A stretch of 64,000 nt of DNA, taken from assembly GCA_034336665.1 (NCBI GenBank), contig CM067589.1, forward strand, positions 2,365,720 through 2,429,719. Reading direction: 5' to 3'. Every line of letters begins with the position of its first letter. Position 1 is the first letter of the stretch. Shown here piece after piece: positions 1 to 42,744 of this stretch. Under the pieces are notes generated by a model. The model did no database searches and was not told the DNA's origin. It worked only from the letters and a program-made list of their open reading frames with translations. The position numbers and the translations under genes are program-made. Source of the DNA: Luscinia megarhynchos (lineage: Eukaryota; Chordata; Aves; Passeriformes; Turdidae).

Positions 1-208
1 CCGGCTGATCCCTCTGCGCTGTCACCCTCGCTCGCGGGGTGTCCCCACTTGTCCCCACCATGCTCTTGTGGCACGGCCAGCCCGAGCACGGCCCCGGGGA
101 CACGCACACTCGCCCAGCTGCGGGGGCTCAGGTACCCCGCATCCTCCGCGGCCGGGGAAACTGGAGGCACGGCCGAGCCGCCACCCTTTGGGGGGTGTTT
201 TCCCGCAG
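1..208. other. GC-rich sequence upstream of first recognised CP2 exon
   Basis: Very GC-rich sequence with several overlapping open frames on both strands, none with recognisable protein similarity. It ends in a pyrimidine tract and AG (207-208) that can serve as the acceptor of the first recognised CP2-gene exon. The 5' exons and promoter of that gene are probably left of the window. No exon is supported here. Confidence 0.4.
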
Positions 209-337
209 GGACCCCCCGCGCCGCCCTGCCCTGAAGCAGGAGGGAGCCCCCGCCCCGCCTTCCCGGTACGTGCTGGGCGCGCCACCTCCCGGCCGTGCGG
301 CGCCACCACGGGAGACCCTCACCTACCTCAACCAGGG
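209..337 (+). CDS. CP2 gene exon: linker ending ETLTYLNQG
   Basis: The exon follows a CCCGCAG acceptor and ends at AACCAGG|GTGAGT. Its frame contains LKQEG, then RYVLGAPPP, then ETLTYLNQG. This parallels the FKQEE ... QYVLCAA ... ETLTYLNQG stretch just before the DNA-binding domain of TFCP2-type proteins. The left part is uncertain, because the expected ALP-FKQE order needs a small indel. Confidence 0.7.
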
Positions 338-3300
338 GTGAGTCGGGGCGCCGGGGAGGGACCCCGGCCGGGGCTCAGTCCCGCTCGGGCCTCAGGCCAG
401 TCTACGAGATCCCAGCATGGCAGGGAGCAGAGCGTGGGGACGAGCCGAGGCGCTGGGGCGAGTCACAAGGTGGCGGGCGGGACGGGCGGAGGCTCCGGGC
501 GGGGTCGCTTCAGCCAGTCGAGCCAGTTTGCCCCCAGTTCGGGGAGCAGTTTGCCCCAGTTCACACCCAGTTTTCCCCAGTTCAGACCCAGTTTTCCCCA
601 GTCCACACCGCGTTTTCCCCAGTCCAGACCCAGTTTTCCCCCAGTTCAGACCCAGTTTTCCCCAGTCCACACCGCTTTTCCCCAGTCCAAAACCCAGTTT
701 GCCCCAGTCAAACAGTTCCTAAAGTTCACACCCAGTTTTTCCCCAGTACAGACCCAGTTTTGCCCCAGTCAAACGGCAGTCCTACCCCAGTCGCTCAGCT
801 TTGTGCCCCAGTCAAACCCAGTTTTCCCCAGTCCACACCGTTTTCCCAGTCCACACCGTTTTCCCAGTCCAGACCTCCAGTGCCAGTCCCGACCCAGGTT
901 TTTGCTAGTCCGTCCAGCGTTTTGCTCCCAGTCCAGACCAGCTTTGCGTCTCCAGAGTACCCAGTTTGCCACAATGAGGGTCCAGCCCCAGTCTTTGGGC
1001 AGTCCGTCCACGTCTCAGTCCCTCACAGCGTTTGCCCCAGTCCAGGCCCCTGGTTAGTCCCAGTCCAGCTCCCAGCGTGCCTCTACAGCTCTGCCCCAGT
1101 TCAGCTTCATTTCCAGTCCAGCTCGCTCCGGTTTCGGGTCCAGATCCGTTCTGCCAGTCTATTCAGCTCATTCTGGTCCTTAGTTCTGCTGCCAGTTCCT
1201 TGGTCCCTCGTTCTGCTGCCGTTCCTTAGTCCTGGGGTTGTAGTTCTCAGTGCCTATCTCCTTGGTCCTTACGTTCTGGCCGTCCTGGTCTGTGTCCCAG
1301 TAGTCCCATGGTCTGTGGCAAGTCCTGACAGTTCAGCCGGTCTGGGTTCTGCGCCAGTTCCATAGCTGCAGTCTGCGCCCTAGTTCTCACCCCAGTCTGG
1401 GCTGAGTTCATGCCCCAGTCCAAGCCGCTGCTCAGCCCCCAGTCTGGCTGGTTCACGTGAGTCTGGCTGAGTCCGTGCTCGAGCTCAGCCCTGGTTCTGC
1501 GTCATGTTTCAGAGCCTCCTGCATTTCTGCCCCCGTGCCCTGTTCGTGCTCCACTGCTCCACGTCCACTCTGCCTCGCCTGTGTCCACTCTGCGCTGCCC
1601 TACCGCGTTGTCCGCGTTACCCTGTGCCTGTGTCCACCCTGCCCTGCCCTGCCCCACACTGCCCTGCGTGTCCTGCCCTGCCCTGCCCTGCCCTGCCCGT
1701 GCGCTTCCCTGCCTGCCCGTGCCCTGCCCTGCCCTGCCCTGCGCTTCCTGCCTGCACGCACGCGTGTCCCTGCGCTGCCACCGCCCTGCCCTGCCCTGCC
1801 CTGCCCCGCCCTGCCTGCCCTGCCCTGCGCGTGTCCCATGCCCTGCCCGTTGCCCTGCCCTGCGTGCCCTGCCCGTGTCCACCCTGCTGCGTTGCCCTGC
1901 CCTGCCCGTGTCCCTGCTGCCCTGCCCTGCCCATGTGTCCCTGCCGCCCTGCCCTGCCCCTGCCTGCCCTGCCCTGCCCGTGCCCTGCCCGTGTCCCTGC
2001 CCTGCCCTGCCCTGCCCTGCCCGCTGCCCTTCCCCTGCCCTGCCCGTGTCCCTGCCCTGCCCTGCCCTGTGTCCTGCCCTTCCCGTGCCCTTCCCGTGCC
2101 CTTCCCGTGCCCTTCCCGTTCCCCTGCCCTGCCCTGCCCTGCCCTGCCCGTGCCTGCCCGCGGCTCTGTCCCCGCTCAGGGCGTGCTCCGCGTGGTTTTT
2201 CCACGACCGGCGGCTCCGGTGCTCGAGCAGCAGCAGCTCGAGGGGTGGCGCTGGAGCCGCCCGGGCGATCGGATCCTGGACATCGGTGGGTGCCGGGGCT
2301 GGAGGGGCTGGGGGAGCTGCAGGGCCGATGCTGAAGCCCCCTCCCGCGAGACATCCCGCTCTCCGTGGGGTCCTGGAGCCCCAAATCCCCCCACGCTGCT
2401 CAACACGGTGGGAATTCCTCTGGGGACCCCCTCCAGGCGCGTCGTGTTCGTGCAGGTGGGAGCCGCGCCTGGGGGGTTTGGGGGGTTCTGGGGGGTTTGG
2501 GGGGTTCTGGGGGTTCTGGGGGGTTCTGGGGGGGGTTCTGGGGGGTTCTGGGGGGTTCTGGGGGAGGGTTTTGGAGTTTGGGGGTTCTGGGGGGTTTGGG
2601 GGTTTGAGGGGGTCTGGAGGAGTTCTGGGGGGTTCTGTTTTGGGGGTTCTGGGGGGGGTCACGGAGCCCGGTCCCGACCCCCGCTGTCCCCCGCGGCAGG
2701 GTTCACTGCATCAGCACCGAGTTCACGCTGCGGAAGAGCGGGGAGAGTCCCGTTCCCGCCTCAGATCGACACCTTCGGGGGCTGGGGCAGCCCCCGAGCA
2801 CCTGCACTCGGCCAGCTGCCTGGTCAGGGTGTTCAAGGTATGCCGGGGGAGGGGACCCAGTGCCACCAGTGCCACCAGTGCCACCAGTGTGAGCAGTGCC
2901 ACCAGTGTGAGCAGTGCCACCAGTGTGAGCACTGCCACCAGTGTGACCAGTGTTCCCAGTGTGACCAGTGCCCCCAGTGCCCCCAGTGCCCCCAGTGCCC
3001 CCAGTGCCTCCTCATCACTGGGAGGTCCAGCTCGGAGCGTGGGGCAGCGCAGGGGGTTGGGGGGATGCACGGGGGGCTCTGGGCGCCCCAAGGGTCCGGG
3101 TGCCTCGGGGGTCCCGGGGGGTCCCGGCTGTCCCGGGGTGTCTCGGGGTGTCTCGGGGTGTCTCGGGGTGTCCCGGGGGGTCCCGGGGTGTCGCGGCTGT
3201 CGCGGGTGTCCCGGGGTGTCCCGGGGTGTCCCGGGGGTCCCGGGGTGCCGCGGGGGTCCCGGGCCGCGCTCACGCCCCGCGCAGCCCAAGGGCGCCGACA

Positions 3301-6300
3301 GGGAAGCAGAAGACGGACCGGGAGAAGGTGAACAAGCAGCCGGCGGCGGAGCGGGACCGGTTCCAGCCGTCCCGCGAGAGCACCGTGCTGGCCGAGGTGG
3401 GGCGGGCCTGGCGCCCCGCGGGCCGGGGGGACCCCCGGGACCCCGCGCCCATCGCCCCCTCCCCCCGCAGTGCGCCCCGTGGCCGGACGCGCTGGGCGCC
3501 CCCCTGAGCCCCCCGGGGCTGCCGTCCCCGCACCCCGGAGAGCTGCTGAGCCCCCGAGAGGTGAGCGGGGACCCCTGGACCCCCAAATATTCCCCGTGAG
3601 CAGGGACCCCTGGACCCCCAAATATTCCCCGTGAGCGGGGACCCCTGAACCCCCAAATATTCCCCACTTTGGGGTCCCCGCTCATCCCGCCGCCCCGCAG
3701 GGTGTGCGTGTCCCCGAGGGGGCCCGAGGAGAGTCCTGGCGAGGTGAGCGACCCCCCAGAGCCTCCCCCGGCCCCGCGGAGGGGCTGAGATGTGCCCCCC
3801 TGAGCCCCCCGAGCTCCCCGGGCGCTGAGCCCCCTGAGCCCCCTGGGCCCCTGAGCCCCCGAGGCTCCCCAGGCGCTGAGCCCCCCTGAGCCCCCGAGGC
3901 CCCCCAGGGCGCTGAGCCCCCGAGCCCCCCTGGGCCCCGAGCCCCCCGAGCCCCCCTGAGCCCCCCCCCCTGGGCCCCCCGAGGGCCCCCCTGAGCCCCC
4001 TGAGCCCCCTGGGCCCCCCTGAGCCCCCGAGGCCCCCCAGGCGCTGAGCCCCGGCGCGTCCCCGCGGGACACGCAGCAGTGGCTGCTCCGGCGCCGCTTC
4101 GCCTCCCTGCGCCCGCGCGTTCGCCAACTTCAGCGGTGAGAGCCGGGGCAGAGCCGGGACCCTCCTCACCCCTGAGCCCCTCCTCACCCCTGAGCCCCTC
4201 CTCACCCCTGAGCCCCTCCTCACCCCTGAGCCCTCCTCACCCCTGAGCCCCCTCCTCACCCCTGAGCCCCCTCCTCACCCCCTGACCCCCCTTCTGCACC
4301 CCCTGGGCCCCTCCTCACCCCCCTGAGCCCTTCTCACCCCTGAGCCCCTCCTCACCCTGAGCCCTCCTCACCCCTGAGCCCCTTCTCACCCCCAGAGCCC
4401 CTCCTCACCCTGAGCCCCCTCCTGCACCCCTGAGCCCCTTCTGCCCCCTGAGCCTCCCTCCTCACCCTGAGCCCCCTCCTGCCCCTGAGCCCCCCTTCTC
4501 ACCCCTGACCCCCTCCTGCCCCTTGCTTGCACCCCTGAGCCCCCTCCTGCCCCCCTGCACTCCCTGAGCCCCTCCTGCTCCCCCGAGGCCCCCTTCTGCC
4601 CCCCTCCTGCTCCCCCGAGGCCCCTCCTGCCCCCTGAGCCCCCTGTCCGCAGGGGGCCGATCTGCTGAAGCTCTCCCGCAGGGACCTGATCCAGATCTGC
4701 GGGAGCCCCCGACGGCATCCGCCTGTGCCACGCCCCTGGCGGGCAGGGTGCAGCTCCCGCCCCCCCGCCTCTTTTTTGGGGACCCTCTGGAGGTTCCGTG
4801 GGGTTCGGCCGCATCCTGCGCCCCCCCAGACCCTTCTGTGCCCCCCAGGTGCCCGCGGCCCCGGCTGACCCCTGCACGTGGCGCTGGGGAGCTGGCGGGG
4901 CTGAGGCGCAGGAGGAGGCGAGGAGCAGGTGGGGAGGGCTCAGGTGTGTCAGAGGGGGCTCAGGTGTGTGAGGAGGGGCTCAGGTGTGTGAGGAGGGGGC
5001 TCAGGGTGTGTGGGGAGGGGCTCAGGTGTGTGAGGAGGGGAGCTCAGGTGTGTAAGGAGGGCTCAGGTGTGTCAGGAGGGGCTCAGGTGTGCGGGGAGGG
5101 GCTCAGGTGTGTCAGGAGGGCTAAGGTGTGCGGGGAGGGCTCAGGTGTGCGGGGAGGGGCTCAGGTGTGTCAGGAGGGGGCTCAGGTGTGTCAGGAGGGG
5201 CTCAGGTGTGTGAGGGAGGGGCTCAGGTGTGTCAGGAGGGGCTCAGGTGTGTGAGGAGGGGGCTCAGGTGTGTGAGGAGGGGCTCAGGTGTGTCAGGAGG
5301 GGGCTCAGGTGTGCGGGGAGGGGCTCAGGTGTGTGGGGAGGGGGCTCAGGTGTCAGGGAGGGGCTCAGGTGTGTCAGGAGGGGGCTCAGGTGTGTGAGGA
5401 GGGGGCTCAGGTGTGTAAGGAGGGCTCAGGTGTGCGGGGAGGGCTCAGGTGTGTCAGGAGGGGGCTCAGGGGTGTCAGGAGGGGGCTCAGGTGTGCGGGG
5501 GGCTCAGGTGTGTGGGGGAGGGGCTCAGGTGTGTGAGGAGGGGCTCAGGGGGTGTCAGGAGGGGGGCTCAGGTGTGTGGGGGAGGGGCTCAGGTGTGTCA
5601 GGAGGGGCTCAGGTGTGTCAGGAGGGGCTCAGGTGTGCGGGGAGGAGCTCAGGTGTGTGAGGGAGGGGGCTCAGGTGTGCGGGGAGGGGGCTCAGGTGTG
5701 TGAGGAGGGGGCTCAGGTGTGTGAGGAGGGGCTCAGGTGTGCGGGGAGGGGGCTCAGGTGTGCGGGGAGGGCTCAGGTGTGTGAGGAGGGGCTCAGGTGT
5801 GCGAGGGGGAGGGCTCAGGGTGTGTGAGGAGGGGCTCAGGTGTGTAGGGGAGGGGCTCAGGTGTGCGGGGGAGGGGGCTCAGGTGTGTCAGGAGGGGCTC
5901 AGGTGTGTCAGGGAGGGGGCTCAGGTGTGCGGGGAGGGCTCAGGTGTGTAAGGAGGGGCTCAGGTGTGCGGGGAGGGGCTCAGGTGTGTCAGGAGGGGCT
6001 CAGGTGTGTGGGGAGGGGCTCAGGTGTGTGAGGAGGGGGCTCAGGTGTGTAAGGAGGGGGCTCAGGTGTGTCAGGAGGGGGCTCAGGTGTGTGGGGAGGG
6101 GCTCAGGTGTGCGGGGGAGGGGCTCCAGGTGTGTAAGGAGGGCTCAGGTGTGCGGGGAGGGGCTCAGGTGTGTCAGGAGGGGGCTCAGGTGTGTCAGGAG
6201 GGGGGCTCAGGTGTGTGAGGAGGGGGCTCAGGTGTGCGGGGAGGGGCTCAGGTGTGCGGGGAGGCTCAGGTGTGTGGGGGAGGGGGCTCAGGTGTGTGAG

Positions 6301-8120
6301 GGAGGGGGCTCAGGTGTGTCAGGAGGGGCTCAGGTGTGTGAGGAGGGGAGCTCAGGTGTGTGAGGAGGGGGCTCAGGTGTGTCAGGAGGGGGCTCAGGTG
6401 TGCGGGGAGGGGCTCAGGTGTGTGGGGAGGGGGCTCAGGTGTGTCAGGAGGGGGCTCAGGTGTGTCAGGAGGGGGCTCAGGTGTGTGAGGAGGGGGCTCA
6501 GGTGTGTGAGGAGGGGCTCAGGTGTGCGGGGAGGGGCTCAGGTGTGTCAGGAGGGGGCTCAGGGGGTGTCAGGAGGGGCTCAGGTGTGCGGGGGGCTCAG
6601 GTGTGTGGGGGAGGGGGCTCAGGTGTGTGAGGGAGGGGCTCAGGGGGTGTCAGGAGGGGGCTCAGGTGTGTGGGGGAGGGGGCTCAGGGTGTGTCAGGAG
6701 GGGGCTCAGGTGTGTCAGGAGGGGGCTCAGGTGTGCGGGGAGGGCTCAGGTGTGTGAGGAGGAGGGGGCTCAGGTGTGCGGGGAGGGGGGCTCAGGTGTG
6801 TGAGGAGGGGGCTCAGGTGTGTGAGGAGGGGCTCAGGTGTGCGGGGAGGGGCTCAGGTGTGTGAGGGAGGGGGCTCAGGTGTGCGGGGAGGGCTCAGGTG
6901 TGTGAGGAGGGGCTCAGGTGTGCGGGGAGGGCTCAGGTGTGTGAGGAGGGGGCTCAGGTGTGTGTGAGGAGGGGGCTCAGGTGTGTCAGGAGGGGGCTCA
7001 GGTGTGTCAGGAGGGGGCTCAGGTGTGTGAGGAGGGGAGCTCAGGTGTGCAGGAGGGGCTCAGGTGTGTGAGGAGGGGGCTCAGGTGTGTCAGGAGGGGC
7101 TCAGGTGTGGGGAGGGGGCTCAGGTGTGTGAGGAGGGGGCTCAGGTGTGTCAGGAGGGGCTCAGGTGTGTGAGGAGGGGCTCAGGTGTGCGGCAGTGCAA
7201 GGACGGAGGGTGGCACTCACAGCCCTGTCCCCATCCCAGTATCCCATCCCATCCCAGTATCCCATTACCCCAGTATCCCATCCCATCCCAGTATCCCGTT
7301 ACTCCCAGTATCCCAGTATCCCAGTATCCCGTTACTCCCAGTATCCCATCCCACCCCAGTATCCCGTTACCCCCAGTATCCCATTACCCCAGTACCCCAT
7401 TACCCCAGTATCCCAGTATCCCTTTACCCCAGTATCCCAGTACCCCAGTATCCCAGTATCCCATTACCCCATTACCCCATTACCCCATTATCCCAGTACC
7501 CCATTATCCCAGTATCCCATTATCCCAGTATCCCAGTATCCCAGTATCCCGTTACCCCAGTACCCCAGTATCCCATTACCCCAGTACCCCAGTATCCCAT
7601 TACCCCAGTATCCCAGTATCCCATGATCCCATTACCCCAGTATCCCAGTATCCCAGTACCCCATTACCCCAGTACCCCAGTATCCCAGTATCCCAGTATC
7701 CCAGTACCCGCCATCCCGCCAGGGCTGTACCAGGAGCTGCACCTGCAGCACCTGACGGTGCCCGAGCTCTCGGCCAGGCTGGCGGAGCTGCTGGCGCTGC
7801 CCCCGGCGCAGATCCTGCGCCTCTCCCGGCGGGGACCCGGCGGCATCCAGGTGCTGCTCAGCGACGCGGTGAGGACACGGGGACCGCGGGGCGGGGAGGG
7901 ACAGACCCCCGAGCCCCCCGAGCCCCCCCCCCGAGCCCCCGCTCTGCCCCGCAGATGATCAGGAACCTCCAGGACGGGACGAGTTTCGTGGTGGCGATCG
8001 GCAGAGGTAGCGCGGTGGCCGCGGGCGAGCGGGGCCGGGCTGGGGGCGATCGGCGGCCCCGGCTGAGCCGCGCTGCCCGCAGCCCCCGGCCCCGAGGGCT
8101 TCCAGCTGCTGCTGCGGTAG
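209..8120 (+). CDS. CP2/LSF-family transcription factor gene (TFCP2/UBP1-like), multi-exon, 5' end outside window
   Basis: Grainyhead/CP2-family transcription factors bind DNA as oligomers in the nucleus. About fourteen exons are recognisable: 209-337, 396-469 (weak), 2180-2285, 2351-2455, 2700-2837, 3285-3396, 3471-3560, 3701-3743 (weak), 4041-4135, 4653-4747, 4849-4928, 7723-7868, 7955-8006 and 8083-8120. In order they give the N-terminal linker (ETLTYLNQG), the CP2 DNA-binding domain (LEGWRWSRPGDRILDI, then STEFTLRKSG), a SAM-like domain (DTQQWLLRRRFASL, then ADLLKLSRRDLIQICG) and the C-terminal domain ending FQLLLR-stop. Most introns are short and filled with tandem repeats. Several exons carry 1-bp indels, mostly in G or C runs, so the frame is not clean. 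Either the assembly has consensus errors or the gene is decaying; three intact terminal exons and good splice sites favour a real gene with errors. It lies tail to tail with FBXL20, as UBP1 lies with FBXL2 in human. It may be a fourth CP2 paralogue or a divergent TFCP2 or UBP1 orthologue; similarity alone does not decide. Confidence 0.8.
396..469 (+). CDS. CP2 gene exon (weak): VYEI start of DNA-binding domain
   Basis: After a CTCAG acceptor the frame reads VYEIPAWQG, comparable to the SYEIRMLDN that follows LNQG in the family. The CAAG|GTGGCG at 466-475 is a possible donor. Similarity fades after five residues, so the exon end and frame are tentative. Confidence 0.4.
525..1460 (+). repeat. 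Degenerate CCAGTCCAGACC / CCAGTTTTCCC minisatellite
   Basis: Irregular tandem units of roughly 14-20 bp based on CCAGTTCAGACCCAGTTTTC, decaying into a TC-rich tail after about 1100. It fills the first half of the 1.7-kb intron before the LEGWRW exon. The long open frames here simply follow the repeat. Confidence 0.85.
1622..2160 (+). repeat. CCCTG pentanucleotide array
   Basis: About 540 bp dominated by CCCTG units interrupted by CCCGTG and CCTGC variants. The strand asymmetry is strong (C and T on the + strand). It fills the second half of the same CP2 intron and stops about 20 bp before the next exon's acceptor. Confidence 0.9.
2180..2285 (+). CDS. CP2 gene exon: DNA-binding domain, RVVFHDRRL ... 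LEGWRWSRPGD
   Basis: The acceptor is CCCCGCTCAG and the donor ATCG|GTGGGT. Reading across two frames gives [11 protein letters not shown] and EQQQLEGWRWSRPGDRILDI, nearly the family signature ([20 protein letters not shown]). The HDRRL part is displaced by an extra base in the T run at 2196-2200 and restored by a missing base before EQQQ, so the two indels compensate. Confidence 0.85.
2351..2455 (+). CDS. CP2 gene exon: DIPLSVG ... LLNTV ... RRVVFVQ
   Basis: The pieces DIPLSVG, LLNTV and RRVVFVQ match DIPMSVG, QLNTV and KRTSVFIQ of the CP2 domain. The segment that should read VEFLWDP is broken by single extra bases in GGG (2410-2412), GGGG (2422-2425) and CCCCC (2427-2431). Together these add three bases and restore the frame. 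The donor is GTGCAG|GTGGGA. The acceptor, GCGAG, is weak. Confidence 0.75.
2456..2670 (+). repeat. G-rich TTCTGGGGGG array filling a CP2 intron
   Basis: Tandem GGGGGGTTTGGGGGGTTCTG units start about 15 bp after the donor at 2456 and occupy most of the 244-bp intron. Closely spaced G runs give strong G-quadruplex potential on the coding strand. Confidence 0.9.
2700..2837 (+). CDS. CP2 gene exon: HCISTEFTLRKSG ... EHLHSASCLVRVFK
   Basis: HCISTEFTLRKSG, then QIDTF, then APEHLHSASCLVRVFK parallel the family's HCISTEFTMRKHGG, VQIDTF and TEHLHSASCQIKVFK. Three reading frames are needed. An extra base at the acceptor (CAGGGTTCAC), an extra C in TTCCCGCC, a missing C in CCTCAG and one further shift after TTCGGGGG break the frame. 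The donor TTCAAG|GTATGC is good. Confidence 0.8.
2860..3010 (+). repeat. 9-bp CAGTGCCAC / CAGTGTGAG array
   Basis: About 17 copies of a 9-bp unit (GTGCCACCA, GTGTGAGCA, GTGCCCCCA variants), starting about 20 bp after the donor at 2838. It is open in all frames because the unit length is a multiple of three and contains no stop. Confidence 0.9.
3100..3260 (+). repeat. 10-bp TGTCTCGGGG / GTCCCGGGG array
   Basis: GC-rich tandem 9-10-bp units lie in the second half of the intron between the VRVFK and PKGADR exons. Confidence 0.85.
3285..3396 (+). CDS. CP2 gene exon: PKGADR-KQKTDREK ... RFQPSRESTVLAE
   Basis: The acceptor is CCGCGCAG and the donor GCCGAG|GTGGGG. The translation PKGADR, then KQKTDREKVNKQ, then RFQPSRESTVLAE matches PKGADRKQKTDREKMEKR and YQPSYETTILTE, the basic end of the CP2 DNA-binding region. 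One extra G in the GGG at 3301-3303 breaks the frame between ADR and KQK. Otherwise the exon is conserved. Confidence 0.9.
3471..3560 (+). CDS. CP2 gene exon: CAPWPDALGAPLS ... LLSPRE
   Basis: A clean 30-codon exon between CCCCGCAG and GTGAGC. It begins CAPWPD, matching the family's CSPWPE, and continues as a Pro/Ser-rich linker, as expected between the DNA-binding and SAM-like domains. No indel is visible. Confidence 0.85.
3561..3665 (+). repeat. Three tandem 38-bp units, each starting with a GTGAGC donor motif
   Basis: The intron after the CAPWPD exon begins with three near-identical units, GTGAGCGGGGACCCCTGGAC followed by CCCCAAATATTCCCC. The first unit supplies the real 5' splice site; the other two repeat the GTGAGC motif at 3596 and 3632. 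Confidence 0.9.
3701..3743 (+). CDS. CP2 gene exon (weak): short linker exon
   Basis: The stretch is bounded by CCCCGCAG and GAG|GTGAGC and reads VCVSPRGPEESPGE in one frame, a Ser/Pro/Glu-rich linker with no diagnostic similarity. It is supported only by its splice sites and position. Confidence 0.45.
3785..4040 (+). repeat. CTGAGCCCCC array
   Basis: Tandem units of about 10-20 bp based on CTGAGCCCCCGAGGCCCCCC fill the intron up to the acceptor of the next exon. Confidence 0.85.
4041..4135 (+). CDS. CP2 gene exon: SAM-like domain, DTQQWLLRRRFASL ... FANFSG
   Basis: SPRDTQQWLLRRRFASL corresponds to TPQEAQQWLHRNRFSTF, the start of the SAM-like domain. The final TTCGCCAACTTCAGCG gives FANFSG (family FTNFSG) but needs a frame change near GCGCCCGCGCG. 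The donor AGCG|GTGAGA is good; the acceptor is placed at CCCCCCAG. Confidence 0.8.
4145..4640 (+). repeat. CTCCTCACCCCTGAGCCC minisatellite
   Basis: About 25 units of 18-20 bp (CCCCTGAGCCCCTCCTCA), with TTCTGC and CTCCTGC variants towards the end. It fills the intron inside the SAM-like domain. Confidence 0.9.
4653..4747 (+). CDS. CP2 gene exon: ADLLKLSRRDLIQICGSPDGIRLCHAL
   Basis: Following CTGTCCGCAG, the exon reads ADLLKLSRRDLIQICG then DGIRLCHAL, matching [28 protein letters not shown] of the SAM-like domain. Extra C bases in CCCCC (4706-4710) and CCCC (4733-4736) break the frame. The donor is placed at GGCAGG|GTGCAG. Confidence 0.85.
4849..4928 (+). CDS. CP2 gene exon: RPRLT ... basic/Gln-equivalent linker
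   Basis: After CCCCCCAG the exon gives PRPRLT, like VRPRLTIYVCQE of the family, but one extra C (4869-4872) shifts the rest. It then runs into an Arg/Glu-rich stretch where relatives have a Gln-rich linker. It ends GAGCAG|GTGGGG, exactly where the large minisatellite starts. Confidence 0.65.
4929..7192 (+). repeat. 2.26-kb G-rich minisatellite, GGGGCTCAGGTGTGTGAGGA
   Basis: About a hundred units of 20-23 bp (CTCAGGTGTGTGAGGAGGGG, with TGTCAG, TGCGGG and TGTAAGG variants) occupy the intron from its first base. Every unit contains CAG|GTGTG, a donor-like motif, and a run of 4-6 G. The many short open frames here follow the repeat and are not genes. Confidence 0.97.
7213..7712 (+). repeat. CCCAGTATC / CCCATTACC array
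   Basis: About 500 bp of 8-9-bp units (CCCAGTAT, CCCATTAC, CCCAGTAC) end about 10 bp before the acceptor of the next CP2 exon. With the preceding minisatellite, this one intron is 2.8 kb of almost pure repeat. Confidence 0.95.
7723..7868 (+). CDS. CP2 gene exon: C-terminal domain, LYQELHLQHLTVPELSARL
   Basis: An intact exon between CCCGCCAG and GACGCG|GTGAGG. LYQELHLQHLTVPELSARL, then RRGPGGIQVLLSDA, aligns along its length with VYHAIYLEELTAVELTEKI and KQGPTGIHVLISDE, the C-terminal oligomerisation domain of TFCP2/UBP1. The frame is continuous and the substitutions are mostly towards GC-rich codons. Confidence 0.92.
7955..8006 (+). CDS. CP2 gene exon: MIRNLQDGTSFVVAI
   Basis: The exon starts after CTGCCCCGCAG in phase with the previous one and reads MIRNLQDGTSFVVAIGR. 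The family has MIQNFQEEACFVLDTMK and MVQNFQDESCF. It is intact and ends GGCAGAG|GTAGCG. Confidence 0.92.
8083..8120 (+). CDS. CP2 gene terminal coding exon: PGPEGFQLLLR-stop
   Basis: After GCCCGCAG, the split codon and PGPEGFQLLLR-TAG match the family C-terminus (SNDGYHIILK-stop or TNDSYHIILK-stop), including the hydrophobic triplet before a basic last residue. The stop is at 8118-8120. Confidence 0.92.
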
Positions 8121-8275
8121 GAGCTGCCACACCCCGGGAGGGACAGCGGGGACATCGCTGGAGCCGCGCGGGGAGCGAGAGGGGAGCCCGAGGGTGGCCC
8201 AGCCCCGGAGCCCCCCCTGTCCCCGTGTCCCCCTGTCCCCGTGTCCCCGTGTCCTTTCCCGTGTCCCCGCTTTGC

Positions 8276-8281
8276 ATTAAA
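8276..8281 (+). promoter_or_regulatory. ATTAAA polyadenylation signal of the CP2 gene
   Basis: ATTAAA (TTTGCATTAAAGGAG) lies 156 bp after the TAG in an otherwise GC-rich 3' UTR. It is the first polyadenylation-like hexamer downstream. Confidence 0.7.
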
Positions 8282-8329
8282 GGAGGGAGAGCGGCCCCGA
8301 GCGCGGCCTCGTCCCTGCGGCACCGCCGG

Positions 8330-8420
8330 GGTTTGGGGTCCCCGGGGCGGGTTTGGGGTCCCCGGGGCGGGTTTGGGGTCCCCAGGGCGGGTTTGGGGTC
8401 CCCGGGGCGGGTTTGGGGTG
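8330..8420 (+). repeat. Five tandem units of about 21 bp, GGGTTTGGGGTCCCCGGGGC
   Basis: A short GC-rich tandem array just after the presumed polyadenylation site of the CP2 gene. Confidence 0.9.
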
Positions 8421-8784
8421 CGAGGACAGTTGCTGGTCCCCAGCAGGGACAGGGCGGGTCCGGAACCGCCGGCACCGAGCCCGGGGCAGCCTCAATCCGG
8501 TCAGGAACGGGTTAATTTTAACACCGAGTCCTCCCCCGAGCGGGGACGTCCTTGGGAGGGAATTCCCGGGGCTGGGAGCGGGGTTGGGATAAACGAACCG
8601 GGAACGGGAGGGGAAGGGACGGACCCGGAGCGGGGACAACATCCCAGACACGGGGACAAGGAGCGGACACGGGAACATCCCCGACCCTCCCAAAAACGCT
8701 CCGAGGGCATCCAGAGCCCGGCCCAGCAGCGCTTTCCTGACCGCCCTGTCCCCGCCGCAGGGAGCAGGGCCACCCTCACCACCC

Positions 8785-9590
8785 GTATTTCTATATTTCT
8801 GTATATTTCTATATATTTCTATATCATTTCTATATTATTTCTATATATTTCTATATTATTTCTATATATTTCTATATATTTCTATATATTTCTATATTAT
8901 TTCTATATATTTCTATATTATTTCTATATCATTTCTATATTATTTCTATATCATTTCTATATAATTTCTATATCATTTCTATACAATTTCTATATTATTT
9001 CTATATAATTTCTATATTATTTCTATATATTTCTATATTATTTCTATATATTTCTATATTGTTTCTATATAATTTCTATATAATTTCTATATAATTTCTA
9101 TATATTTCTATATTATTTCTATATTATTTCTATATCATTTCTATATATTTCTATATCATTTCTATATTATTTCTATATTATTTCTATATAATTTCTATAT
9201 AATTTCTATATAATTTCTATATAATTTCTATATAATTTCTATATAATTTCTATGTATTTCTATATCATTTATATATTATTTCTATATATTTCTATATAAT
9301 TTCTATATTATTTCTATATTATTTCTATATATTTCTATATATTTCTATATAATTCCTATATTATTTCTATATTATCTCTATATCATTTCTATATATTTCT
9401 ATATTATTTCTATATAATTTCTACATTATTTCTATATTATTTCTATATATTTCTATATCATTTCTATATCATTTCTATATCATTTCTATATTATTTCTAT
9501 ATTATTTCTATGTAATTTCTATATTATTTCTATATATTTCTATATCATTTCTATATAATTTCTATATTATTTATACATTATTTCCTCCCA
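8785..9590. repeat. AT-rich array ATATTATTTCT / ATATATTTCT
   Basis: About 800 bp of 9-12-bp units (TTTCTATATTA, TTTCTATATCA, TTTCTATATAA) lie between the two convergent genes. It switches abruptly from more than 65% GC to extreme AT. No coding content. Confidence 0.97.
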
Positions 9591-9593
9591 GTT

Positions 9594-10890
9594 CTTGGCA
9601 CTGTCGCACCCGCAGCGCCAGCACGAGCACACACGTCACCACTGCCACATTTCCCAGCTCTGTCCCCCCGGGCCAGCACCGGGTCCAGCTCCTGCCCGGC
9701 CCCCGCAGCCCCGAGTTAAAACCCCCGAGGGGCCCGGGGGGGACACAGGGACGGGGATGGGGGGTCGCAGCCCCCGGGGACCCCCGGGTGGGCTGGGCTG
9801 CAGTTTGGGGACAGAGGATGAGGCACTGCGGGCACAGGGATAGGGAGCAGGGGATGGATTAAAACATCCCTAAAAATCTCAGCTCCCAATTGCCGTGAGA
9901 GCCCCGGGGCGGTGGCACGGACAGGGAGGGGGTGGCACTGCAGTGTCCCCGCTGGTGGCACTCCCGGGACGGGTCCTCGGGCAGGACAAAGGGCAGGAGA
10001 GGCTCGGACCGAGCGGCTTCTCCTCGATTTTCTCCTTCCCTCTGGCCCCGAGGCGCTGCAAGGAGCCTCTGCCACGTTTGGCACAGAGGGAGAGCAGAAA
10101 CCTTGAGCTGGATGCCAGAAGAGGAAGCAAAAAGGAATAAACCCCCCAAACACCCCTCAAGCACAAAAACCTTCACCAGAATAAGACAAAATGTTTTAAA
10201 ACTCGTTTCCCAGGACACTGCAGTCAGGAACTTTGTCACAAATCCACCCCGTCCTGCCAAAAAACCCAACACTACCCCAAAACCCACAACAGCAGTGGCC
10301 AGCCATGAACAACACAGAAAAAAATCCACCAGAAATACAAAAAATAGTGCAAAAAATAGGAATTTGTTGGTCTGACATGACGCCTGTGACCTCCCAGCTG
10401 CCCCAGTGTCACCCTCTGTGCAGGGGAGCAGCCGTGGGATTGGGATAAAGGTGCTGCAGTGTCCCCAAAGCCCAGAAAATCTTTTTTTTTGTGGCACTGG
10501 ATCTGCTCAGCCTGGCTGGAGGATCTCCCACCCCAGGAGGGGCCAGGCTGTTTCTGCTGGTCCCTGCTCCTGTCAGGAGCCCAGGGAAAGCTGGAATTGG
10601 GCATTGGGAAGGTGCTGGAAGGTAAATCCAGAAAAAACTCAGCTGGGAGGTGGGGACGGCGCAGCCTCCAGGGGACACAGTTCACAATTCCAGGATTCCA
10701 GGAGAGGGAACAGCTCAGGGATGGGATCCTGCCCCAGAGCCCCCCAAAAACCCCAGGAGGCAGCAACTCCTCATTCTGGGCTCTGACTCCCACCCAGAGC
10801 ATCCCAGGGATCCCCAAACCACCCCAGAGCACCTGAACCCCCAATTTTCCTGTGCCCAGTGATTCTCCCAGCGAGACACAGCTTGGAAAA
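9594..10890. other. Intergenic sequence, no gene seen
   Basis: Complex sequence between the AT-rich array and the presumed FBXL20 polyadenylation signal. Open frames up to 216 codons occur on both strands, but none shows a protein motif or plausible splice structure. Confidence 0.5.
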
Positions 10891-10895
10891 CGGTG

Positions 10896-10901
10896 TTTAT
10901 T
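10896..10901 (-). promoter_or_regulatory. FBXL20: Candidate AATAAA polyadenylation signal for FBXL20
   Basis: TTTATT on the + strand reads AATAAA on the - strand, followed by a T-rich stretch. It would give a 3' UTR of about 3.4 kb containing the two minisatellites at 11.5-12.2 and 13.15-13.95 kb. Other AATAAA motifs could be used, so this is a candidate only. Confidence 0.4.
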
Positions 10902-11464
10902 GGTATTTATAAATATAAACATCAGGAAGAGTCCATTTGAAGACGGATAATTGACTTAAAAGGACACTGTCAAGAAGTTTGAGCTACCTTAATGCTGTCA
11001 CCCTGGTCTGCAAACAGAAAATAAAATTGCTTTGGGTTCTGTGTTCTGGAGTTTTCCCTGGAAAACTCTGCTCTGGTACAAAGGGATCAGTCAGCCAACT
11101 ATGCCAAAAATCCCCAAAATCCTGCTCTTCACTCTCCCCTGCCACGGTAGGAACTAAACAAAAGTGTTTTTTTGTTTTTCATTTTCCCAGAGTTGTGCAA
11201 ATCCTGTGATTGCTGGGTGACCCCTGGTCCACTCTGTGCCACCACCATCTTCTGCCACCCTGAAACCTGGAGAAAAGTTCTGGAAATGAAGGAGAGGGGG
11301 AGAATCCACAGCTAAAGAGGATTTGAATAAATACGAGGGGTTAAAAGCCACCTAGAGGAGGGCATTGACAGTATCCTTTTAACCACTGCAGCTGCTCCCA
11401 GCACTGAGCACAGACTGGGGGGCTGGGGGAGATCCGGGGGGCAGCTCTGGGGACAGCAGCAGGT

Positions 11465-12200
11465 GAGGAAATTCCCTCCCCAGACCCCAAATCAGCCAGT
11501 CCTGGGGGAAATTCCCACTCCAAACCCTAAATCAGCCATTCCTGGGGGAAATTCCTTTTCCAGACCCTAAATCAGCCAGTCCTGGGGGAAATTCCCACTC
11601 CAAACCCTAAATCAGCCATTCCTGGGGGAAATTCCTTTTCCAGACCCTAAATCAGCCACTCCTGGGGGAAATTCCCACTCCAAACCTTAAATCAGCCATT
11701 CCTGGGGGAAATTCCCACTCCAAACCTTAAATCAGCCACTCCTGGGGGGAAATTCCTCCCCCAGACCCCAAATCAGCCATTCCTGGTGGGGAATTCATTC
11801 CCCAGACCCTAAATCAGCCACTCCTGGGGGAAAATCCCCTTTTCCAGACCCTAAATCAGCCACTCCTGTTGGGAATTCCCTTCCCAGACCCCAAATCAGC
11901 CACTCCTGGGGGAAAATCCCCTTTCCAGACCCTAAATCAGCCATTCCTGGGGGAAATTCCCTCCCCTGACCCTAAATCAGCCATTCCTGGGGGAAAATCC
12001 CCTTTTCCAGACCCTAAATCAGCCATTCCTGGTGGGAAATTCCCTCCCCAGACCCCAAATCAGCCACTCCTGGTGGGAATTCATTCCCCAGACCCCAAAT
12101 CAGCCACTCCTGGGGGAAAATTCCCTCCCCTGACCCCAAATCAGCCACTCCTGGTGGGGAATTCCCTTCCCAGACCCCAAATCAGCCACTCCTGGTGCTG
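11465..12200. repeat. 40-bp minisatellite (CCTGGGGGAAATTCC ... CCTAAATCAGCC)
   Basis: About 18 units of 40 bp; the CCTGGGGGAAATTCC motif recurs at 11501, 11541, 11581 and 11621. Units alternate between TTTTCCAGACC, CACTCCAAACC and CTCCCCAGACC versions, a simple higher-order pattern. It probably lies in the FBXL20 3' UTR. Confidence 0.95.
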
Positions 12201-13149
12201 CAGCTGCTCTTCCCCCAGCAGGAGATTCCCCAGCACCCAAACTTTTTGGGAAGCATCCCTGGGATGTGTGAGCTCCCTGCAGGAAGGACAGACAGAGCTC
12301 CCACAGCCCTGCCCCAGTCTGACCAGTCCTGCCCCATTAACCCTTTGGGATCTGCCCAGCAGTTCCACACTGGGCCCTGCAGTCCAGTCTGTGCAGATTT
12401 TGCTTTAAACACCCCCCAAAAAAAGCAGCCACTGCCCCCCCTGGCCTCCCCCAGAGCACATCCAAGCCCACCCTGGGCTCCTGCCAGGGCAGCACTTACC
12501 TGTGCAGGTGGGGAGGGTGGGAGGAGCCCCAGCACCCACAGGGATCCCAGCCCTGCTCCAGCAGGGAATCCTGAATTCTTCACCAGGGCAACAAGCAAAA
12601 AACCCTCAGCTTTGCTTTTCCTTGGGGAAAGGATGGAGGGGACTCACAGGACGTGGATCAGGAATTCCCCCCTGTACTGAGAATTATATATTTGTATGTG
12701 TAGCATTCCCTGTATGGGGAATTCTATCCTTGTCATTGGGATAAAAGCTGGATTTGGGATAAATCTGGGACACCCAATCCCTGATCACACAGGTGAGGGA
12801 GCCCAGGAGAGCCCAGCCTGGGGGGCAGCTCCCTGTGCTCCTTTCAGATCTTCCTGACAGCTCAGCACAGGCTCAGGCTTCTCCTGAGGAAAAAAAAATT
12901 CCTTATGGATTCGTGGCTTTGGGCTGGGAAATATCAAGAAATTACTAAATCAGAAATTTGGAAAAAAATTAAAAACAAAAAACAAAAAAAAAACCCCTAA
13001 AAACCAGAGAAAACTGCCTCCCCAGGATTTGGGGAGGGTAAAATTTGTGGCATTAGAATCTCCAAGCTCTACCACAACCATCTGGGGAGAATCTGGGAAT
13101 TCTCTGAGCTGGATGCCACAGACACAGGAATAAAGGTGAGCCTTCATGT

Positions 13150-13950
13150 GAGCATGCTCAGGGAAGCTCAGGGGAATCCTGACCCCAGGGGAATCCTGAT
13201 CCAAGGAAATCCTGATCCCAGGGGAATCCTGATCCCAGGGGAATCCTGATCCCAGGGGAATCCTGGACCCCAGGGCAATCCTGGACCCCAGGGCAATCCT
13301 GGATCCCAGGGGAATCCTGGAGCTCAAGGAAATCCTGATCCCAAGGAAATCCTGATCCCAAGGAAATCCTGATCCCAGGGGAATCCTGGAGCTCAGGGGA
13401 ATTCTGGATCCCAAGGAAATCCTGGAGCTCAGTGGAATCCTGGAGCTCAAGGAAATCCTGATCCCAAGGAAATCTTGGATCCCAGGGCAATCCTGGAACC
13501 CAGGGAAATCCTGATCCCAGGGAAATCCTGGATCCCAGAGAAACCCTGGATCCCAGCGGAATCCTGATCCCAAGGAAATCCTGGAGCTCAGGGGAATTCT
13601 GGATCCCAAGGAAATCCTGGAGCTCAGTGGAATCCTGGAGCTCAAGGAAATCCTGATCCCAAGGAAATCCTGGACCCCAGGGAAATCCTGGATCCCAGGG
13701 CAATCTTGATCCCAGGGAAATCCTGACCCGAGGAAATCCTGGATCCCAGAGAAATCCTGGAGCTCAGGGGAATCCTGGATCCCAGGGAAATCCCTGGATC
13801 CCAGAGAAATCCAGATCCAAGGAAATCCTGACTCAGGAAATCCTGATGCAAGGAAATCCTGGATCCCAGAGAAATCCTGGAGTTCAGGGGAAACCTGGAT
13901 CCCAGGGAAATCCTGATCCCAGGGGAATCCTGACCCCAGGGGAATCAGCA
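13150..13950. repeat. GGAATCCTGATCCCAGG minisatellite
   Basis: About 45 units of 16-18 bp (AATCCTGGATCCCAGGG, AATCCTGGAGCTCAGGG, AATCCTGATCCCAAGG). It contains larger repeated blocks: the segments near 13321-13460 and 13565-13660 are almost the same. The long - strand open frame follows the repeat. Confidence 0.95.
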
Positions 13951-14312
13951 GCTGCTGCTTCATCCCTCCCTGACAGACAGACATGGAACTCGTTGGGGTT
14001 TTCAGGTCTGTTGGGATTTTAGGGTTCGAGCATGTTCCTCTCCTCTCCTCTCCCCATTCCAAGGATCTCAGTTCCTTCCCAGCCTCACCAGCAGCATCAG
14101 TCCCCGGGCTGGGAGCCCCCCTGCCTCCATGAGGGTTTTTCCGGGACGCCAGCAGGGAGCGGCTGGGGACGGGCCGTGCCGGGCAGGGAGGAGGCGAGCC
14201 AGCCCTGCTCACTGGCTCCTGCCGCGACGCTGAAGCTTTTCCTCCGAGCTCGGGCCGTGCCGGGCTGGCTCGGCGTGGTCCAGCCCCGGAGCGCAGGGAG
14301 GAGCTGCCGGGG

Positions 14313-14420
14313 TCATAGGATGATGCAGCATCTGCAGAAGCGCTGGCGGCTGCCGCCCACCGAGGGCGGGGGGGTCACCGGCGCGAAGTAGGCGTGGACT
14401 TTGATGTTGGGCAGGTGGGT
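14313..14420 (-). CDS. FBXL20: FBXL20 last exon: THLPNIKVHAYF ... CRCCIIL-stop
   Basis: The acceptor is TTTGCCCTTGCAG. The 35 codons begin THLPNIKVHAYFAPVTPPPS and end CRCCIIL, with TGA at 14313-14315. They match the FBXL20 C-terminus, including the CaaX box (CIIL). Confidence 0.97.
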   Translation of the reverse strand, partial: THLPNIKVHAYFAPVTPPPSVGGSRQRFCRCCIIL

Positions 14421-17400
14421 CTGCAAGGGCAAACACCCGAATTGGGAGCGGGCAGGGACCTGCCCCGAGCTCCTGGGGCAGCCAGAAGTGACGGGAACAG
14501 GCGGGTCACACCCCAGGGGATGGGCACCGACCGGGAAGTGGTGGGGAAATGGGAGAATCCTCATCCCTGGGAGTGTCCAAGGCCGGGCTGGGAGGGTTTG
14601 GAGCAAGCTAGGGTGCTGGAAGGTCCCTGCCCACAGCAGGGGGTGCGACTGGATGGGTTTCCCAACCCAACCACTCAAAAACTCCATAATTCCATGGTGT
14701 AACTTTACAGATCCATTATTCTCTTTGCAAGAAAGATGTTACTATTCTTTCACACCTGGAGACACAGACTCGGGAGGGGACACTGGGAAGGAATTCCTGC
14801 CTGTGAGGGGGGTGAGGCCACAGGGACACTCCTGGATTCATCCCAAGCCATGGAAACCCCATGGGATGGGCAGGCTGGGTGAGGATGGAGCTGGGAACCT
14901 GGCACAGATTTCCAGGTTTGCTGGGGCTGCCCCTGGATCCCTGAGGTGCCCAAGGCCAGGTTGGACACTGGGTTTGGAGCAGCTGGGACGGTGGGAGGTG
15001 TCCCTGCCATGGCAGGGGAGGCACTGGGTGAGCTTTGAGGTTCTCCCAAACCATTCCCTGATTCCGTGTCTGACTCCAGTGAGGGATTTCCTGACGGGTT
15101 CTGGGCTTGGCTCCACTGGGAGCTGCTGCTTGGAGCAACCCAGGGCAGTGCTAAGTGCCCAACCCAACCCACTGCAGGCTCCCACGACCCCAAATCCACC
15201 TCTGCTGACTCTCCCAACTCTGAGGAGCACGAGCAGCAGCCGATGGGCACGGTGCCAGCTCAGCCCTCCCTCCTCCTCCTCCCCAGGGATGAGCCCTGCC
15301 CAGCCCTGCTCACCCTGAGTCTCTTGATCCCGGCCCGTGTGATCTGCTGGCAGTCGTACAGCTCTATCCTCTCCAGGCTGTGGCAGCTCTTGAGGTGCTC
15401 CAGGGAGGCATCAGTGATCAGGGGGCAGTTGTCCAGCTCGATGACCTCCAGCCGGTCGTGGGCGCAGGCGCCGTTGCCCAGGTGACGGATCCCGTCGTCC
15501 GTGATCAGCTCGCAGTGGGACAAGCTCTGTGCCCGGACACAGGGGTCACACCCAGCTCTGAGAGCCCCAAAACCTGCCAGCACCTCGCTGGGGATGGGAC
15601 AGCATGGTGGCTGGCTCCTTGCACTGGAGCTCTGTGGGGCTCTGATGTGTTTGTGCGTTGGTTGATGTGGCCAGAAATGTGGATTCGGGTGGGGCAGTGA
15701 CCCTGATCTCCTGGCACATATTATCTGCTAATGGGCATCTTTAAACCAGCTGGGGCAATCATCTTTATCTTTCCCATGATCCACCCTCCCTCCAGGAGAT
15801 ATCTCCTGTTAATGGGCCAGGTGTTGAACCAGGTGGGCAGTGATCCTTATCTCTGTGGGATATCTCCTGTTAATGGGCCAACTGTTAAAAACCAGCTGGG
15901 GCAATCATCTTTATCTTTCCACAGCCCATCCTCCCTCCAGGAGATATCTCCTGTTCATGGCCATTGAGTCCCAGGGCATGACTGATAAAATTACATCATC
16001 CCACTGGGAGATGCTCCAGCCAGGGGGAGGAGCCAAACATTTCCTACCCAGATAAAAACTGAGATTTTGGACAGCAAGTTTCATTTTTCCACTGGATTCC
16101 AGAGGAAAACCAGACCTTTCCACATCATCCCTGGACCTTCAGAGGAAACTGCACCTTCTCCAGGAGCACTGCTCCAGCTGAACCACATCTGCCACTGCAG
16201 GAGGATGCAGCCACCATTGAATGGGACTGCTGCCAACACCCTGCCTGACTGACGGGTGTCAGCTTGGATTCTGACTCTGGCAGTGTTTTGGGATTGTTCT
16301 TTGTAATACTGCATTTCTATTTTAATTTTCCTAGTAAAGAACTGTTATTTTTAATTCCCATATCTCTGCCTGAGACCCCCTTAATTTCCAAATTATAATA
16401 ATTTGGAGGGAGGGGGTTTACATTCTCCATTTCAAAGAGAAGCTTCTGTCTTTATTGGCAGACCCCTGTCCTTCAAACCAGGAGAGTGTGCAAGGGTAAA
16501 ACCCGCAGCTGGAAGGGGAAAATTCCCCCCTGGGAGGGTGGGCAGGGGGTGCCCAGAGCAGCTGCACCCCTGAGGTGTTCAAGGTCAGGCTGGGAGCACC
16601 TGGCACAGTGGGAGGGGTCCCTGCCATGGGAACAGGATGATTTTAGGGTCCCTTCCATGGCTCCAGGGGAAGGCAGTTTTAGAGGGATGAACCCCAGAGT
16701 GGCACAGAACTTCCAGCACACCTGACTTATCAGAATTCACCTTTGGCCTCACTGTGGGAAGAACCTTTGGTGCAAAAAGCAGCAGGAACACGATACCCCT
16801 CCCCTCAATGTGGATTTCTGGGGGGCTCAGCTGGGAATTCCTCCAGGAGGAGGAGCTGGCCCTGACTTTCCTGGGGGATGACTGCACTGGAGAACTCACA
16901 TTTCCACACCCCCCAGCACAGGACACCAAGTCAGGGGTGACAGGACCAAATTCCCAGAGATTCAGCCCCAGAAGGGATCCTGGCTGCCCTGCAGCTCCCT
17001 CCCCTCAGATGGACTGACAGCTCCTGTGAGGCACATCCCAGCTGGAATTCTGCTCCCAGGAGAAAACCCACAGCCCTCTTCCCTCTCTCCACAGGAAAAC
17101 CAAACCTCAGGGTCAGCTTTCCAGCAGAATCCTTCCAAACTGGGAAGTTTAAGATCCATTTTTTGGGAGAAAGGAAATGCTGGAAGCATCCTTGGAATAC
17201 TCACCAGGACCTGCAGCCGTGGACAGTGTATGGAAAGCTGGATTAGTGTGCTGTCTGTTATCTGCAAAAGGAAAAACCTTCCAGGTTGGTGCTGGGCACA
17301 AGGATTTGAGGTTTTTTTTTTCCCTCCTACTAAAGCAAAACTGCAGGACTTTCCCTAATCCATACTGGAAATGCCTTCCATATCCCATTGAGGATATTTA

Positions 17401-19942
17401 ATGGGATATTTGTATGGATTGAGGGAATATTTGTATGGATATTTGAGATTTGCCCACAGCCTCTCATCTCCTCATGGAAATCATCTGAATTGTTTTTTAA
17501 CTTCCTGAAATCAGCTCCCAAACATCCTGTGGATTGCCCAGCTCCTGTTTTGTTTTTTTTCAGGAAGAAGGAATCCTCCACAAAGGTTCCCAATCCCAAA
17601 CCCCCAAGTAAACTGTTTTTTTTCTCCTCCTACCAAAGCAAAACTGCAGGATTTTCCCTAATCCATATTGGAAATGCTTCCCATATCCCATTGAGGATAT
17701 TTAATGGGATATTTGTATGGATATTTGAGATTTCCCCACGTATCTCCTCTTGGAAATCATCTCCTGGATGAAGAATTGGGATGCAGAGACATCACTGGAG
17801 TGTTTTTAATTTCCTGAAATCAGCTCCCAAATGTGGCTCAGATTCCCTCAATCCCAGCACCCTGTGGATTGCCCAGCTCCTGGTTTTCCTCAGGAAGAAG
17901 GAATCCCCCACAAAGGTTCCCAATCCTAACCCCCACCTGAGCTGCTGGGATGGATTTGAGCCCTGGCTCAGTTTTGCTTCTTCTTTTTTAGGGTTAATTC
18001 CCAACCCCTTCCTGCCTGGGCTGGGGCCATTCCCTCTTTATGTCCCAAATTTCTGCTCAGGAAGTGCAGGACAGCAGGTCCAGGTATTCCCAGGAACCCC
18101 AATCCCATCCCAATCCCATTCCCTTCCCAATCCCTTTCCTTTTTCCATCCTAATCCCATTCCCTTTTCCATCCCATTTTCCATCCCAATCCCATTCCTTT
18201 TCCCATCTCAATCCCAGTCCCATTCCCTTTCCCATCCTATTCCCATTCCATTTTCCATCCCATTCCCATTCCATTTTCCATCCCAATCCCATTCCCTTTC
18301 CAATCCCATTCCCATTTCAATCCCATTCCCTTTCCATCCCAATCCCAATCCCAATCCCAATCCCAATCCCAATCCCACCCCAATCCCACCCCAATCTCAT
18401 TCCCCTTCCATTCCCATTCCATTTTCCATCCCAATCCCATTCCCATTTCAATCCCAATCCCATTCCCATTTCAATCCCAATCCCATTTCCATTCCCTTGG
18501 TCTCAGGCTCAACCCATTTCCAATCCACCCTCAGGTTTGGAGGTTTTTTTCATGGAATTTTGACTCAATCCCTCCCTCTCCCTGTAAATGCTTCAGCCCA
18601 ATTTGATTCCAACCCCCCAAAATCTTTGCTGCTTCACCATTTCCCCCATGGTTTTCCAAAATCCCATTATTTTTAGGAAGATAAGATTTTTCTCTGGGAT
18701 TTTCTCTCTCAAATCCATCATCTCTCACTATTAAATATTTCTTATTTCCAGCACTGCTCTCACAGAATCCAAACCAAGGATAAAACCTCATTCCCAACAT
18801 TTCTCTCTCCAAATCCTGCCACTCTTCCCACTCAGGATTCCACATGAAGTTCTGATTTGCAGAAAATCTGATTTTCCACCAATTTTCCACAGCAGCCTGA
18901 GGTGGCATTTCCTACCTGGACACACTCTTCCAGATCCATTTTTTCAAGCTCATGGCAATTCTAGGAATAAAGAGAATTCCAAAAAGCCACGGTGAGTGTG
19001 AAGTCCAGACAGCAAATAATAATTAAATAAAACAACAAAAAAACCACAAACCCACAAAGAAAGAGGAAAGAAAAAAAAAAGTTAAAAAAAATTATAAATA
19101 TAAATACATAATATTGTAAATATAGATAAATAGTTATTTTAAACATATTAAATATTTTAATATTAAATATATACAGAAGATAAATAGAATATTATTATAA
19201 AATAAATATATTAATATTTAAATATTAAGGATAAGTTAAATATAAATATAAATCATTATATATAAATTAAATATTAATTTTGTAGATAGAAACAGAAATA
19301 TAAATAAAAATACGAACAAATATATAAATATATATTTAAATATGTAAGATTACAAAATATGTACAGTTATAAATATTATAAATATTATAAAAATTATTAA
19401 AACATAGAAATATAAACAAAATATAAATATATATTTAAATATGTAAAATTATAAAAATGTATAATTTATATATTAAAAATATATAAATATATAAATATAT
19501 ATATAAAACAAATACAAAACCACATATAAAGATATACCAAATCTAAATCTAAACAAATTAAAAATAAACCACCACAAGAACAGTTTGTTTTAAAAATTAA
19601 GGGGTTTCTCCATAAAATATCACAACTGGAAGGAGAATCTGTCACTTTTTTGTGAAGCATAATAAAGGAAATTTCACTCATTTAAAGGGTTTTTTAATCA
19701 TGAAAAGTAAAGGGTGTTAGTTAAATTCAGGGTCACTTGTAGACAAACAGTAAATTTATAACTAAAATATTTCACATTTCTGTGCTTTGGATGCAAATCT
19801 TCCCAGGTTTGTGAGCCAAAGATCCCATAAAAATGAATTTTTGAACCTTAAGCTTCCACCCAAATTTAAAAAACTTTCCAATTTTTTTTTGCCTTTTTTT
19901 TTGCCTTTTTTTTGGGTGGCTTTTTTGTTTGTTTGTTTTTAG

Positions 19943-19973
<31 letters not shown>

Positions 19974-40960: not shown

Positions 40961-40970
40961 ATTTTATGGT

Positions 40971-42693: not shown

Positions 42694-42744
42694 CTGGAAG
42701 GGAAAACACTGGGATGGAACTGGGAGCACTGGGAATGATTCAGT

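Follow-up and report, generated by a model that had tools for sequence, protein, structure and literature searches.

A songbird CP2-family gene tail to tail with FBXL20, very likely a fourth member of the LSF subfamily

The closest described relatives of the gene reported here are the LSF-type members of the CP2 family. An excerpt of PMC6213935 counts three such genes, and the part of PMC2873413 drawn on here lists human CP2, LBP1a and LBP9 as the family, with a SAM domain separating LSF from grainyhead. Human UBP1 and FBXL2 are placed at one shared locus in an excerpt of PMC2715105. A further point of comparison is offered by hidden GC-rich bird genes (excerpt of PMC4539667), which the gene resembles in its very high GC content and in G/C stretches on which sequencing fails, but unlike them it figures in the annotations of many birds, where it bears the name of a sister gene.

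With TFCP2 (CP2c, LSF) the gene shares the CP2, SAM and C-terminal domains, although its N-terminus is different; with UBP1 (LBP-1a) it shares the CP2 fold and a convergent gene of the FBXL2/FBXL20 type; and with TFCP2L1 (LBP-9, CRTR-1) it shares exon order, domains and an MLFWH-type start. It nevertheless belongs to a clade separate from all three, referred to below as clade 4, most of whose proteins carry the name TFCP2L1. The human sisters lie at 12q13, 3p22 and 2q14 and FBXL20 at 17q12, and UBP1 and FBXL2 are oriented tail to tail; such positions would fit the four HOX-bearing paralogous regions. We suggest, with a probability of roughly 85%, that the locus holds a songbird copy of a fourth LSF-subfamily CP2 gene of jawed vertebrates, partnering FBXL20 as UBP1 partners FBXL2. 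No description of a fourth CP2 paralogue was recognised in the open-access literature searched.

The CP2-family gene and its neighbour

The window, that is, the whole stretch of 64,000 nucleotides analysed, carries on its + strand a gene of the CP2 family with ~15 exons, from an ATG at 60 to a TAG at 8118-8120, followed by FBXL20 on the - strand. The features, in window positions, are as follows.

60..131, + strand: exon 1, MLLWHGQPEH..., start codon at 60
209..339, + strand: exon 2, ...YVLGAP...ETLTYLNQG; by alignment
397..470, + strand: exon 3, ..YEI.., conservation poor; by alignment
2180..2284, + strand: exon 4, RVVFHDRRL...QQLEGWRWSRPGDRILDI, DNA-binding domain; by alignment
2350..2455, + strand: exon 5, DIPLSVG..., DNA-binding domain; by alignment
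2699..2837, + strand: exon 6, VHCISTEFTLRK...HLHSASC, DNA-binding domain; by alignment; Pfam CP2 0.15, below cutoff
3285..3396, + strand: exon 7, PKGADRKQKTDREKV...; by alignment
3471..3561, + strand: exon 8, CAPWPDALGAP...; by alignment
3700..3743, + strand: exon 9, short and uncertain; by alignment to P0001
4041..4137, + strand: exon 10, SAM domain part 1; by alignment; Pfam SAM_3 0.055, below cutoff
4653..4746, + strand: exon 11, SAM domain part 2; by alignment; Pfam SAM_3 0.0022, below cutoff
4851..4928, + strand: exon 12, RPRLTLHV; by alignment to P0001
4936..7189, + strand: intron array, 21-bp unit, about 110 copies; by repeat search
7725..7868, + strand: exon 13, C-terminal oligomerisation domain, without frameshift; Pfam GRHL1_C 3.6e-7
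7955..8006, + strand: exon 14, without frameshift; by alignment
8084..8120, + strand: exon 15 and stop, TAG 8118-8120
8276..8281, + strand: ATTAAA, possible poly(A) signal; by eye
14313..39562, - strand: FBXL20, convergent neighbour, 3' end at 14313; exons go on in a second copy to 56398

Exon-by-exon alignment to human TFCP2L1 recovered most exons in proper order on the + strand (positions 60 to 7996); three short regions (~3690, ~4840 and ~8070) gave no sensible match to it, and the exons there were positioned using the protein of the songbird Camarhynchus (P0001). Searched in intervals of 6 nt, GT was present at all 14 expected splice donors (background 0.36) and AG at 13 of 14 expected acceptors (background 0.42), the AG of the 14th (4039-4040) lying one base beyond its interval. 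A processed copy is ruled out by the 14 introns.

When eight exon pieces were searched against Pfam, one scored above cutoff for GRHL1_C (3.6e-7), three scored below the cutoffs for SAM_3 (0.0022 and 0.055) and CP2 (0.15), and four matched no family. Because these scores fall mostly below cutoffs, the assignment to the CP2 family rests on alignment to relatives and not on Pfam alone. Exons 4-7 can be aligned with TFCP2L1 and with clade-4 proteins that carry the CP2 DNA-binding domain (PF04516), exons 10-11 align to relatives across the SAM domain, whose scores stay below the curated cutoff because it is divided between two exons, and exon 13 holds the C-terminal oligomerisation domain.

The introns of the gene are arrays. 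By eye, the 21-bp unit GGGCTCAGGTGTGTGAGGAGG found just 3' of exon 12 contains CAG/GTGTGT, a word resembling a splice donor, so that the ~110 copies furnish this intron with roughly a hundred decoy donor sites. Two annotated clade-4 proteins, from Strix uralensis (P0018) and Morphnus guianensis (P0019), include proline-rich repeats at the junction of exons 3 and 4, the place of an intron array in the window; these repeats are probably intron sequence annotated as coding, which would make the array an old feature of birds.

FBXL20 was identified by comparison with the human protein (C-terminus THLPNIKVHAYFAPVTPPPSVGGSRQRFCRCCIIL, stop at 14313-14315, - strand). The two genes stand tail to tail on one gap-free stretch, and neither reading nor a repeat search revealed another gene between 8120 and 14313; no Rfam family was found in the window. 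An earlier note on this DNA, which described CP2-family exons on the + strand ending at 8120, FBXL20 on the - strand ending at 14313 and nothing else in between, is borne out on these points. It was right to see a CP2 gene in the span beginning at 209 but overlooked the first exon upstream, and its label 'TFCP2/UBP1-type' does not hold, since MLLWHGQPEH is a start of the kind found in TFCP2L1 and clade 4.

Part of FBXL20 is present twice. A block at 24344-40970, containing seven of its exons, recurs at 41071-57788 around a gap of 100 N, the two being 92-97% alike in their best stretches; in all probability the assembly has falsely included both haplotypes here. In one exon of 66% GC, the second copy (44060-44225) differs from the intact first (26850-27010) by four internal 1-bp indels and zero substitutions, which shows that this assembly can introduce 1-bp indels into GC-rich exons; the other three exon pairs that were compared are free of internal indels. 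Outside the duplicated block, an 800-bp repeat (15688-16483 and 59757-60536, 94.6% identical) may be a mobile element, for instance an LTR.

Condition of the songbird copy

As assembled, the reading frame of the CP2 gene is broken. A frameshift-tolerant alignment to Camarhynchus P0001 spans 425 codons, 345 identical and 80 different with zero stops, and takes 28 frameshift steps, ~19 of them away from manually set exon ends; more lenient scoring gave 346 identical and 72 different codons with 34 frameshift flags. Third codon positions are 92% G or C (GC3 = 0.92). The earlier picture of a GC-extreme gene with array introns and apparent indels is thus accurate.

It may be that Luscinia megarhynchos carries a decaying pseudogene, in which neither the frameshifts nor the many replacements are artefacts, and we regard this as unlikely but deserving of serious weight. 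It would account for the number of frameshift steps and changed residues, as well as for a branch of 0.51 in the main tree (see below), where Camarhynchus has 0.015 and Agelaius 0.082. Furthermore, exon 13, which is indel-free, still differs from Camarhynchus at 8 of 48 residues, and only one in four of the compared FBXL20 exon pairs has internal indels. Against decay stand the high GC3 and the presence of 27 of the 28 splice words; at a divergence of ~0.09 changes per site, 56 splice bases would all be kept with a chance near 0.004, although the intervals used tolerate shifts. The lack of stops in the aligned codons points the same way but weakly, as simulations of free drift also ended without a stop at rates between 5 and 37%, according to the GC bias applied. 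Finally, the GC-rich FBXL20 exon with indels and zero substitutions demonstrates that this assembly makes such errors.

The replacements themselves are skewed in composition: at mismatched positions, the residues G, A, R and P together number 48 in the window and 19 in Camarhynchus, and the residues F, Y, M, I, N and K together number 1 and 16, respectively. GC-biased change can explain the substitutions, and relaxed constraint on the songbird copy is possible. We conclude that most of the frameshifts are probably assembly errors and the GC-raising substitutions probably real, and on balance we favor an intact songbird copy of the fourth CP2 gene.

The evidence that FBXL20 is the gene's neighbour comes from this single window of the songbird genome. 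An artefactual join of the two genes is very improbable: the duplicated block on either side of an N gap indicates that misassembly does happen in the region, but that gap (40971-41070) is the only N run of the window, no N occurs from 1 to 40970, and the gene order mirrors that of UBP1 and FBXL2.

Placement among CP2 genes and distribution

Three protein searches supplied the comparison, the best 120 matches being used from each. A composite window protein retrieved 2235 proteins at E up to 1e-10, human TFCP2L1 retrieved 2508, and a lungfish protein (P0086) retrieved 2280 and contributed sharks and UBP1. Among the best 120 of the 2235, the first 20 are all from birds (58-72% identity), mostly under the name 'transcription factor CP2-like protein 1'. 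The human query gave other bird proteins among its best 120 of 2508 (e.g., Ara P0135 at 91% and Agelaius P0143 at 90%), which indicates that birds possess both TFCP2L1 and the clade-4 gene. The clade-4 gene is therefore already in databases, mostly filed as 'TFCP2L1' or 'UBP1-like', and had not been missed by them as supposed.

In the main tree, an unrooted one of 68 rows chosen from the 289 fetched proteins plus the window, the window groups with Camarhynchus and Agelaius (support 100/96) among birds, although its long branch and deviating composition leave us unsure of its exact position there. Beyond the birds come reptiles, mammals, amphibians and lungfish, joined by four shark or ray proteins (P0245, P0247, P0271 and P0281). 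Clade 4 is a clade of its own: together with these four rows it is split from lamprey, UBP1, TFCP2 and TFCP2L1 at 100/99, the tree being unrooted, so that the shark proteins might not be its orthologues if the root lay elsewhere. Approximately unbiased (AU) tests rejected placing the window inside TFCP2L1 (p = 7.7e-6), UBP1 (p = 4.9e-10) or TFCP2 (p = 1.6e-7), and orthology to any of the three is ruled out by tree and tests together (p <= 8e-6). The proposal of a fourth CP2 gene apart from the known sisters thus survived the test set for it beforehand, namely grouping inside TFCP2 or UBP1.

A FastTree of all 289 fetched proteins agrees, with 115 joining the window, or 119 counting sharks and rays; five of the best 120 rows of the composite search fell outside clade 4 (P0027, P0108, P0113, P0115 and P0120). 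The motif RKNGGEK is present in 83 of the 119 clade-4 rows and in 0 of 170 others, and T[PM]RKHGGEK in 0 of 119 and 159 of 170, respectively. An N-terminal pattern matched 85 of the 94 clade-4 rows that have a start and 0 of 70 others; the nine it missed all have WP by eye.

Several species hold the clade-4 gene and TFCP2L1 at separate places, on different contigs: Agelaius (P0003/P0143), Aptenodytes (P0016/P0180), opossum (P0044/P0153), Protopterus (P0086/P0160) and Xenopus tropicalis (P0118/P0155), while Spea has clade-4 P0088, TFCP2L1 P0170 and UBP1 P0274. The notion that the songbird gene is bird TFCP2L1 itself, relocated or recently copied, has database names and a TFCP2L1-like N-terminus in its favor but can be dismissed in view of the AU test, the separate TFCP2L1 of Agelaius and Aptenodytes, and the extension of clade 4 to lungfish and amphibians.

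Mammalian clade-4 rows in a tree of 79 rows include platypus, opossum, possum, cat, walrus, elephant, golden mole, mole, whale, two bats, rhino, horse, lemur, colugo and tree shrew. This rules out a bird-only gene and overturns the earlier idea that birds retained what mammals lost. Among the best 120 matches of each search (of 2235, 2508 and 2280), no clade-4 row is named for a simian or rodent, and no row from a ray-finned fish or coelacanth falls in clade 4. Since the names are those of clusters, which may include members from other species, an absence from simians and rodents is only suggested; human and mouse are taken to be without clade 4 because the excerpts of PMC6213935 and PMC2873413 count three LSF-type genes. 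Two clade-4 proteins (P0036 and P0089) are full-length frames on contigs shorter than 2 kb, which look like transcripts.

That this is a fourth CP2 gene is very likely, and its probable status as a fourth CP2 ohnologue is supported by the tree, by presence in lungfish and, probably, sharks, and by the human UBP1-FBXL2 neighborhood (PMC2715105, in excerpt, for the locus). The gene would then have arisen in the early vertebrate genome duplications. By homology with its sisters, the protein may bind DNA sequence-specifically via the CP2 domain and assemble through its SAM and C-terminal domains. A fourth gene found from lungfish (probably sharks) to lemurs, yet filed as TFCP2L1 or UBP1, would mix up orthology tables and likewise confuse expression atlases and transfers of function within the family.

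A possible counterpart in frog ionocytes

An excerpt of PMC12768278 describes a Xenopus gene, ubp1, which is enriched in beta-ionocytes, is reported to induce ionocytes when overexpressed and is said to work with Foxi1 in subtype differentiation; its authors remark that the mammalian kidney relies on Tfcp2l1 instead. The cloning primers printed there encode MLFWHSQ and FHCILR*, with the asterisk denoting the stop. The start is shared with Xenopus TFCP2L1 (P0155), leaving the C-terminal primer, six residues long, as the only diagnostic one. HCILR ends 7 of the 289 fetched proteins, all of them in clade 4 (P0076, P0087, P0088, P0089, P0095, P0099 and P0103), while other clade-4 proteins end in something near it; frog UBP1 proteins end in H[IV]IMK (four rows) and frog TFCP2L1 proteins in YHIILK. 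The residue before HCILR is Y in all clade-4 ends printed and F in the Xenopus primer. Judged from the primer ends alone, the cloned frame thus matches frog clade-4 proteins save for one residue, and not UBP1, despite the printed name, and Xenopus ubp1 appears to be the fourth CP2 gene.

If so, the clade-4 gene would act with Foxi1 to make beta-ionocytes (pendrin cells), contributing in the frog to the formation of ion-transporting skin cells, and its likeliest job would lie in ion-transporting epithelia. We give about even odds to a function in the differentiation of ion-transport cells, an analogy drawn through the frog. Comparisons of frog 'Ubp1' with mammalian UBP1 or TFCP2L1 would in that case pit different genes against each other. 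More tentatively, and we think this somewhat doubtful, the gene could be an old ionocyte factor of jawed vertebrates, known in the frog as ubp1; in species that no longer have it or have it in weakened form, mouse and human among them, TFCP2L1 would serve the kidney instead. Such a history would account for the frog-mammal difference noted in the excerpt of PMC12768278, and birds and reptiles, with both genes, would represent an intermediate state.
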